Source of the DNA: Onthophagus taurus
Lineage: Eukaryota; Arthropoda; Insecta; Coleoptera; Scarabaeidae
Assembly: GCF_036711975.1 (NCBI RefSeq)
Contig: NC_091972.1
Span: 39,685,001-39,749,000 of the forward strand
DNA length: 64,000 nt
Direction: 5' to 3'
Position numbers and translations under genes: made by a program. A model generated the notes under the pieces. The model worked only from the letters and a program-made list of their open reading frames with translations, had not been told where the DNA came from and made no database searches. Positions 60,947 to 64,000 of this stretch are shown here, in pieces; the first letter of the stretch is position 1, and each line of letters begins with the position of its first letter.

Positions 60947-61578
60947 ATGGACCGTCGAGGAGTTTTTGAAGTTGTGTCTCAACGAAAAAGGCCTAACCTA
61001 AACTAGGAAGCGCGTCAAAGTGTGTACCATTATTTGCTAGAAGTAAGTGTAAATGGTAAACTTAAGCATGGATCGATAAAGGATGCAGCTGCTCGGTATT
61101 CTGTATCGGAGAAGACTATAAGTCGAATTTGTGTAATGTAAATTCTCGAAAATCTGGAAGAGTCGGCAGGAAACGAAAAATCGTAGATATAGAAAAAATA
61201 AAAGAGATTCATCGCCGCAGAAATATCCGATCACTTGCATATGCCATTGGAATTTCAAAAAGCACAATTCACAAAAGCATTAAATCTGGACTGATCAAAC
61301 CTCATTCAAGCGCAGTAAAACCATTTCTTACTGACCGTAACAAAATCCAACGTTTGGAATACTGCTTGGCAATGCTTGATTCTGAAAGTATCGCTGCTGG
61401 TGCACCTATTTTTAACGATATGAAAAACTACATTCATGTTGACGAGAAATGGTTTTATTTAAAAAAGACCTCTAATAAATACTACCTCGCTCATGATGAG
61501 AGGGAGCCTCATGAAACGTGTAAAAGTATAAAGAGGTTTATTACGAAGGTCATGTTTTTAGCCGCTGTTGCGCCTTAA
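60947..61578 (+). pseudogene. Plant-type mariner transposase, first half
   Basis: It starts MDRRGVFEVV. After an in-frame TAG comes ARQSVYHYLLEVSVNGKLKH and IKDAAARYSVSEKTISRI, the first HTH. A frameshift near 61130 leads to GRVGRKRKIVDIEKIKEIHR, RNIRSLAYAIGISKSTIHKS (second HTH), and NYIHVDEKWFYLKKTSNKYY with the first catalytic Asp in the HxDEKWFY form. TCKSIKRFITKVMFLAAVAP ends the block. This HVDEKWFY...KVMFLAAVA signature is typical of plant MLEs. The segment holding the second Asp is missing. Confidence 0.92.
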
Positions 61579-61771
61579 AATTAACTAATGGGTAATTATA
61601 CAGAAACTATCATTTTTCACATGGTAATTTGAAAATAGTTTTTTTATTCCAAATTTTGTTTTTTAATACACAAACACGAACTTTTGTTCAAAATGAACCT
61701 TGCAACGTTCAAGATCAAACAGTTCAATTATTTTCTAGCCAGAATTGACTTGTTTTTGTAAAAACGATATG

Positions 61772-63666
61772 CAGAGGAATGACGAGATAAGCAGAGGAAT
61801 GATTTTTTAATTTGATACGGCAAAATAATACAATATTAGGCATAATATGCATGTTAAAACCAAAACAGTGAATAGGGAAAACTAAAATACAAACTTGCTT
61901 AAAACAAAAGAATATTCAATGCAATAACGTTTTACACTTGAACAAGCAGCTTCTTCATCTTCGTCAGAATAAACGTCTTCAAACTGTAGCTTGTTTTGAA
62001 CTTTTATGGAACCGCTGATATATCTGCTTAAAGGAGTGTCCTCATCATCACTAGACGTGTCACTAGAAGATAGTTCATCATTAAGCCCAATTTTGTTGAA
62101 TTCAAGGGAACCAATGAAGTATTTTTTATTGCCGTTTATGAAAGTGCTAAGTTCATAAAAGTTTAATCTGATGCTACTTTCATAATCTTCTTTTTTTATT
62201 TGGTGTACTTTCATTGTTCCTCTAAAGGTTTGTAGCAAAACATTCTTAAGTTTTTGGGACATTTCATCAATTTTGTCTGCATCAATCTGATAGCAAGTTA
62301 TGTTCTGAATGTTTTGGCACAGGTTATTCAACATAGCTTTTATTTTGACCATATCTGCTCCTTGACCAACCAATTTATCTAACGTCCTTTTAGTAACTCC
62401 TCCTATCCCGTCAGGTGCCCCCTTTCCGTGACCAGCTTCTAAATAGTTCCAAATAAAAATTTTTACTTTTGGGTGCAATTTTGGCAACTCGATTGCTAGG
62501 AAATAAAACATGGTTTTATTACGGTATTGAGTCGACGGTGAGTCACTAATAAAGTGAAGCGTATCAACTGTTGGGTAAGAGTTTGTTATGCACTTTATTA
62601 TTGGGTCTAAATGCGCCCAAATGGCCGGGACATTATGTAGAAGCGATTCTGATAAAGTGCAAAAGCATTGTTGCTGTACCTCATCTTGTTTGGTATATAC
62701 AACAACAGTATGTAGAGATATCTGTTTTCTTGATCCTCCGAAGTGGAATGCTTGCATCTCTTCTGCATATTTCATGTTGTAGTTTCCACTAAAATCCATG
62801 TGAATAACCGCCTCGGTAATTCGAAGATTCTCTTTAAGTTCTTTGAGTTATTTGTACTGATGTAAGGATCTGCCTTTGTGCTTCAGAAATGGTATAATAC
62901 TTTGCTTAAAATCAGCTATAATATCAGAAACCTGGCATTCAACTTTCTTCTTTGATGTCTTTCTAACCTGCTTTTCTTTTTGTGATGTCTTGTCAACATA
63001 CGTGCATTTTTCTGCCATCCATTTGAAGTAGTAACTGCGTTCCCTAGGGTTGTATTCACGGAATGATATTTGCATAGAAATACATTTATCGCATCTCTAG
63101 AACTGGTCATTCCTCTGTGCCTGTCATCAGTCCTCTGGATCTCAGTAATCCAGAGGAATGGTGCCAGAGGAATGACGACTTCTTCGTTTATTAGTTTTTA
63201 GTTTAGGAAATTGGATGCATCCTAACCTACAAATTGGTCCACGGAAAGGAAACTCATTATTTCGTATTTAAATGAGGGAATGGATGCAACAAAAATATAA
63301 ATAAAGTAAATACACTTATCAGAGGAATGGTCAATCTGTGTGTGACATTAACAATTTGGGAACAAAATGTTAAAAAGAACACGTATTGTTTTAGTTCGAC
63401 AACATTTGCTTACTGACACTCTGCAAGAACTAGGTTAGGAAAAGCATTCTTGCGTGCCAGAGGAATGACCGCTAAAGGTGGTAACATAGTTTCTATCATC
63501 TTTTTGAGGGGAGTTTTAAAGTGAAACATATTTTTATATTAGTTTTACTGAAAGTTCAGGTTTGCTTAATCAAAATGTAAAATTACAAATGAAGAATGTT
63601 AATAGATTTTTGTCTAATATGTACATAATGTTAGACGTCTCCAGTTATAACATGCCAGAGGAATGA
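61772..63666. repeat. Recurring CAGAGGAATGA motifs of the unnamed transposon
   Basis: Seven forward copies (61772, 61792, 63151, 63165, 63320, 63458, 63656) and one inverted copy (63107-63117) occur, with none seen inside the gene. A degenerate inverted copy lies near 63128. They could be transposase-binding sites like subterminal repeats of other transposons (inference). Confidence 0.88.
61882..63075 (-). pseudogene. DDE-like putative transposase, one nonsense codon
   Basis: On the minus strand the frame runs 63075-61882 (398 codons including both stops). The N-terminal part has a basic stretch (KTSQKEKQVRKTSKKK). A TAA at 62850-62848 interrupts it. VIHMDFSGNYNMKYAEEMQA follows, then HFGGSRKQISLHTVVVYTK, LHFISDSPSTQYRNKTMFYF and WNYLEAGHGKGAPDGIGGVT. 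The Asp in HMDFSGNY, the Asp in SDSPSTQ, and the EAGHGKGxxDG block would fit a DDE/RNase H fold (inference). An acidic SSSDTSSDDEDTPLSR stretch lies near the C-terminus. Similar proteins are, to my knowledge, common but unannotated in animals. Apart from the stop the frame is open. Confidence 0.8.
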
Positions 63667-63853
63667 TATTTTGACATGATTTTTTACTATAATTTAATAA
63701 TAATATGTATGATTTCATTAACTCTTTAAGAACTCAATATAGCTGGTCTATACTTTTCTAGAAACAATACGATATTTGTAGAAAGTAATTTTTTGTCGAA
63801 ATTGTTACCGGTAACAGCAAAAATGATAGTTTCTATAGAATTACCGTAATGCT

Positions 63854-64000
63854 TCAATAACCCTAATGTGTCAACCCCCGAATAGTCCGGATACCAATGT
63901 TCTGGACCTCGATTTTTTTAATGCAATACAGACGCTGCAGTATCAAACTGCTGCTTCAAACATCGATCAATTCATCGATTCAGTCACCAAGGCTTTTAAC
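63854..64000 (+). pseudogene. Plant-type mariner transposase, C-terminal part
   Basis: The plus strand reads SITLMCQPPNSPDTNVLDLD then FFNAIQTLQYQTAASNIDQF and continues to the window edge. LMCQPPNSPDxNVLDLGFFxAIQSLQ is the conserved block of plant-type MLE transposases holding the third catalytic Asp. It continues the gene at 60947-61578 on the same strand, after the 2.26-kb insertion and loss of the middle segment. Confidence 0.92.

Follow-up and report, generated by a model that had tools for sequence, protein, structure and literature searches.

Introduction

Sola transposases carry a DDD triad, hAT elements leave an 8-bp target duplication, and Sola3, piggyBac and Kolobok have TTAA as their only known target. 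For Sola2 elements of Dictyostelium fasciculatum (DFa-2) and Polysphondylium pallidum (PPa), the passages of PMC3627910 that concern them describe 4-bp AT-rich target site duplications (TSDs) reading AWWT or ATAT/AAAT/ATTT, terminal inverted repeats (TIRs) of 12-21 bp and, in DFa-2, a transposase of 888 amino acids (aa). Passages of PMC5199201 give TA as the duplication made by mariner and TTAA as the target of piggyBac, and those of PMC3143072 describe for the hAT element Herves a short subterminal word within both ends that is bound by its transposase. Here we analyse a stretch of 64,000 nt from Onthophagus taurus (GCF_036711975.1, NC_091972.1, 39,685,001-39,749,000, forward strand; hereafter the window), which contains an element of 2257 bp at 61590-63846 with repeated sites of the 11-base motif CAGAGGAATGA. 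Taking the parts of our reading jointly, we consider it likely that this element is a non-autonomous, internally deleted cut-and-paste DNA transposon, provisionally Sola2-like, whose sites are most likely bound by the transposase. New is that sister families in the same genome bear different words at nearly equal distances from the 5' end, with the intervening DNA nearly unalignable.

Results and discussion

The element, its copies and its target sites

A first-pass annotation, made from the letters alone, had proposed 28-bp TIRs bordered by TAAT and an insertion into a mariner gene, and both proposals hold. TAAT stands on both sides of the element, and the ends pair over 27 nt (61591-61617 with 63819-63845, 93% complementary), to which an extra G at the left end adds a 28th position. 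Mariner sequence resumes after 63850. Joined through a single TAAT (40 nt), the flanks run uninterrupted in all five mariner loci fetched (L052-L056, i.e., the best six of 52 matching pieces less the window itself). Four match exactly and the fifth has two mismatches; as L052 and L056 are the same place, four independent empty sites remain.

The genome (290.8 Mb searched) contains about 20 copies of this family, family A. BLAST returned 47 matching pieces, most of the long ones 91-97% identical with gaps counted, and a search with the pattern of the ends gave 40 matches against none for the reversed control. Both ends are present in 17 of the 21 loci examined (not in L010, L011, L018 and L020). 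As the annotation had expected, further copies could be retrieved by their ends, the ends agree among the two-ended copies, and the duplication is of 4 bp: 14 of the 17 carry a perfect AT-rich TSD (TAAT, ATAT, TAAT, ATAT, TATA, ATTA, TTAT, ATAT, AGAT, ATGT, ATAT, ACAT, TATA, TTAA), or 15 if one inserted base is allowed, which admits TTAT at L022. At L003 three of four positions agree, and L019 has no such duplication. Counting one TSD each from sister families B and C (see below), 13 of the 17 TSDs (15 A, 1 B, 1 C) are purely A/T and four hold one G or C.

The window copy has lost the N-terminal half of its gene

The annotation had called the element complete, a view that longer copies overturn, as they hold DNA for the N-terminal half of the protein at element position 1503-1505. 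In L009 (3047 bp), C10:9550634-9551367 corresponds to element positions 772-1505 and C10:9552569-9553377 to 1503-2257, and the extra ~1.2 kb sits at the overlap. This stretch encodes 'MPLSGEEKLKRKREAEKRRY...' and a cysteine-containing part, within the N-terminal half. The window copy is without this ~1.2 kb and hence without ~390 N-terminal residues. In tblastn with P0121, a full-length relative of 879 aa, it matches only from residue 389-390 (51-53% identity); in L009, L014, L016 and L017 the match begins at residue 1. L009 itself is without the 3' part, and no intact copy was found among the frames of L003, L009, L010, L012 and L013 or among the copies covered by the P0121 tblastn. Mean divergence is 2.0% among the 13 two-ended copies below 2400 bp, and for these short copies we infer, as the simplest account, a single deletion followed by spread in trans.

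What remains of the window frame comprises 404 codons with one internal TAA, the single stop that had been noted before. Alignment and models both place an RNase H-like core with three conserved aspartates in this region. The core, of DDE/D type, lies in the very blocks that the annotation had singled out as a possible DDE/RNase H core, and its triad is DDD as judged by alignment and model. The glutamate of the DFSENY block, with a conservation of at least 90%, is glycine in the window copy. Structure matches of the modelled core are weak by Foldseek; the top VIA-align rows are the Mos1 mariner transposase and retroviral integrases, with which the core would share its RNase H-like fold but no sequence match detectable in a PDB search.

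The protein is no orphan either but belongs to a large animal family that lacks a Pfam or PDB entry. Homologue searches gave 334, 231 and 609 significant matches in three overlapping lists, of each of which 120 entries were listed. The taxa among the matches listed include insects, spiders, molluscs, fish and a sea star, carried solely as 'uncharacterized protein' or under unrelated names. Lengths cluster between 800 and 930 aa in 84 of 120 listed relatives (median 855) in a search that admits only 0.55-1.75 times the 780-aa query. Among other beetles, Phaedon, Callosobruchus and Brassicogethes have relatives of full length. A relative from O. taurus itself, XP_022911617.1 (P0001), covers 84% of an L003-derived query at 99% identity; it is listed as a gene product, not a transposon, and has the look of a protein made from a deletion derivative. 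Some relatives have a chromo-barrel-like domain, which gave no tblastn match in families A, B or C. These 'uncharacterized' animal proteins gain an explanation here through their link to mobile elements with defined ends, TSDs and a modelled core.

Comparison with Sola2 and other superfamilies

Sola had been recommended as the first group to compare, which proved good advice. The comparison was made by described features, not by sequence, and it somewhat favours Sola2, for which we use 'Sola2-like' as a provisional name. Shared with the Sola2 passages are 4-bp AT-rich TSDs, short TIRs and a similar protein length (888 aa in DFa-2 against the median of 855 among 120 listed relatives), and the DDD triad of the RNase H-like core agrees with Sola transposases too. 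Within the same passages, differences are the TIR length (12-21 bp in the dictyostelid elements against 27 bp here) and the AWWT target, which four of our 17 TSDs fit, all of them ATAT; the others read TAAT, ATTA, TATA, TTAT, TTAA, AGAT, ATGT or ACAT. Membership in Tc1/mariner was rejected on TSDs of 4 bp instead of TA, membership in hAT likewise on TSDs of 4 bp, and Sola3, piggyBac and Kolobok on TTAA occurring in one of the 17 TSDs.

It is possible, if on the unlikely side, that the element represents a DDE/D superfamily that is not on the published list. For the transposase Pfam yields no convincing match and a PDB sequence search no match, and only four of the 17 TSDs fit AWWT. As far as tested, however, the features fit Sola2, including the DDD triad. 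The 4-bp AT-rich TSDs and transposases of ~890 aa also agree with the Sola2 passages of PMC3627910.

Repeated sites in family A

The window copy has nine sites of CAGAGGAATGA, six exact and three with one mismatch; the annotation had the enrichment right and the number, eight, one short. Nine sites at up to one mismatch in 2257 bp compare with a mean of 0.04 and a maximum of one in 100 shuffles, and the rest of the window outside the element contains none at this threshold. At two mismatches the whole window shows a modest excess (23 sites against a shuffle mean of 13.9, reached by 3 of 100 shuffles). As also foreseen, the motif is kept in the family, with 7-11 sites in each of the 17 two-ended copies. 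At motif sites the substitution rate in family A is 0.0047 against 0.0142 in other noncoding DNA (permutation p 0.041), a signal that is gone once gaps are counted (p 0.84).

Different words at nearly equal distances in sister families

At least two sister families with GGGT ends, B and C, share the genome with family A; their proteins are about 34-40% identical to P0121 over the longer matches. With coding sequence masked, the most frequent 8-base words reach counts of 8 (A), 7 (B) and 4 (C), where shuffled sequence never exceeds 3, and the repeated words derived are TCATTAGAGTGG for B and TCAACTCCGTTACC for C. No A site (one mismatch allowed) was found in 20 B and C loci, nor were the B and C words present in the 17 A copies.

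In family A the sites stand 180, 378, 570, 725 and 739 bp from the 5' terminus, followed by an inverted pair at 762 and 782. These distances are exact in L002, L003, L005, L006 and L009; the other 12 of 17 copies, including the window copy, have shifted distances or have partly lost sites through indels or insertions. In the window copy, for instance, the interval between the sites at 63320..63330 and 63458..63468 falls 54 bp under the common spacing. Family B shows 181, 378, 569 and 723, then inverted 768 and 787, exactly so in three of five copies with a readable terminus (L061, L063 and L040/L047) and with an 8-bp shift after the first site in L062 and L064/L057. In family C, the two copies with a terminus both have sites at 382-384 and 572-574; further sites lie at 729 and 744 in L067, the spacings in L066/L046 are 190, 155 and 15, and a clear first site near the 5' terminus was not seen. 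The pair on the 3' side lies at 181/201 in A (13 of the 17 copies), at 169/189 in B1 and at 158/177 in C1 and C2.

Indels are common among young A copies, yet the net differences in distance between families with near-unalignable leaders are small. Our reading is that selection maintains the site distances in the autonomous lineages and that the word and its reader change in step, the reader most simply being the transposase's own N-terminal half. Distances so nearly shared suggest a landing site of set dimensions for the transposase.

The whole family transposase would comprise ~790 residues, as pieced together from several copies, with a basic, coiled-coil N-terminal half, a cysteine cluster and the RNase H-like core with its three aspartates. 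Such an enzyme would most likely cut at the GGGT ends, insert into AT-rich DNA and leave 4-bp duplications, and longer relatives would spread in trans the short copies without the N-terminal half. Most likely that N-terminal half binds the CAGAGGAATGA sites inside the element: the first site stands ~180 bp from either end, the 5' leader holds an array, and an inverted pair adjoins the start codon. The sites would serve in assembling the end complex and possibly also in regulating the gene. Site orientation is identical at both element ends, which a symmetrical complex does not predict. Herves resembles our element in having a short word inside both ends, where binding has been shown for Herves and is presumed here; it belongs to another superfamily, and the Herves passages (PMC3143072) are silent on distances kept across families.

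It is improbable that the sites bind a host protein instead, i.e., a transcription factor or repressor acting in promoter control of the transposase gene. The 5' side holds seven of the nine sites, and the inverted pair abuts the gene start, as such control would have it. However, three families within one genome each have a word of their own, which a host factor does not readily explain, and the 3' end has a pair of sites too, at 181/201 bp. Moreover, the extended word TCATTCCTCTGG has 66 exact matches in the genome, 62 of which fall within family A copies or pieces as judged by coordinates, leaving just four outside (C2:8341328, C2:16418761, C3:18144974 and C6:3424295); the reversed control has five. 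Just as improbable is that sites and spacing are inert relics of shared ancestry: family A copies are only ~2% divergent, the family tolerates deletions by which sites are lost or displaced, and weak residual homology remains in the leaders (alignment z of 4.3 for A-B and 2.9 for B-C), but distances agree within 1-6 bp despite an A-B identity outside the sites of 33% against a 29% background and an A-C z of 0.6, and random placements rarely reach such agreement.

In 200000 trials each, placed at random rather than under a descent model and with positions entered after the data had been seen, the A-B agreement was reached once at 2 bp (4 of 6 sites) and never at 6 bp (6 of 6), the A-C agreement once at 4 bp (4 of 4) and the B-C agreement 75 times at 4 bp (3 of 4). 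The C positions 727 and 742 used in these trials combined two copies; 729 and 744 were later found in one.

Preferring binding by the transposase, we offer a bolder extension that we hold to be unlikely in full: the distances (~180 bp in A and B, then +198, +191 and +155 bp) may form a fixed lattice under selection that serves as a ruler, in which all sites exchange their word together and the word co-evolves with the DNA-binding half. The sites may then mark the linkers of a phased nucleosome array for end-complex assembly; speculatively, one nucleosome would fit into each of the intervals, which measure 155-198 bp. If kept distances with swapped words are what they seem, they offer a testable case of concerted exchange of a whole binding-site set with its protein, visible within one genome.

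Features of the locus and minor observations

Table 1 Coordinates of the element, its sites and neighbouring features, with the two-ended copies of the sister families.
Feature	Position	Strand	Remarks
Mariner/Tc-type gene remnant struck by the element	61129..61578	+	HTH_Tnp_Tc3_2, 24.9 bits, below curated cut-off of 31.5
Left TSD, TAAT	61586..61589	.	
Left TIR	61590..61617	+	3' side of gene
Motif site, exact	61772..61782	+	3'-side pair, 181 bp from terminus
Motif site, exact	61792..61802	+	3'-side pair, 20 bp from site 61772..61782
305-aa open frame, modelled catalytic core	61882..62799	-	D codons 62794-62796, 62542-62544, 62410-62412
75-aa upstream part, same frame	62848..63075	-	ended by TAA at 62848-62850
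Internal deletion junction	63092..63094	.	~1.2 kb present in L009; 3-bp overlap
Motif site, exact	63107..63117	-	inverted pair, adjoins gene start of longer copies
Motif site, 1 mismatch	63127..63137	-	inverted pair
Motif site, 1 mismatch	63151..63161	+	lost in 4/13 short copies via 14-bp deletion
Motif site, exact	63165..63175	+	
Motif site, 1 mismatch	63320..63330	+	
Motif site, exact	63458..63468	+	
Motif site, exact	63656..63666	+	180 bp from right (5') terminus
Right TIR	63819..63846	-	5' side of gene
Right TSD, TAAT	63847..63850	.	
Family B	L040+L047		3492 bp, TSD AGAT; one two-ended copy read
Family C	L050+L045		2713 bp, TSD ATTA; one two-ended copy read

The host mariner (61564-61589 plus 63851-64000) appears to be internally deleted itself, by ~290 bp with an 8-bp overlap, as parts 1-272 and 265-440 of the mariner query sit ~290 bp apart in other copies. 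One member of the protein family, P0235, is filed under a Wolbachia metagenome-assembled genome and is most likely host DNA in the bin. A 905-aa frame at L013:2575-5292 (-), inside a 4.9-kb element copy, resembles by eye the reverse transcriptase of a non-LTR (long terminal repeat) retrotransposon. At L042:595-2583 family C has an open frame of 662 aa; the 171-aa frame downstream of it (L042:3445-3960, +) presumably resembles a PIF/Harbinger-type transposase.
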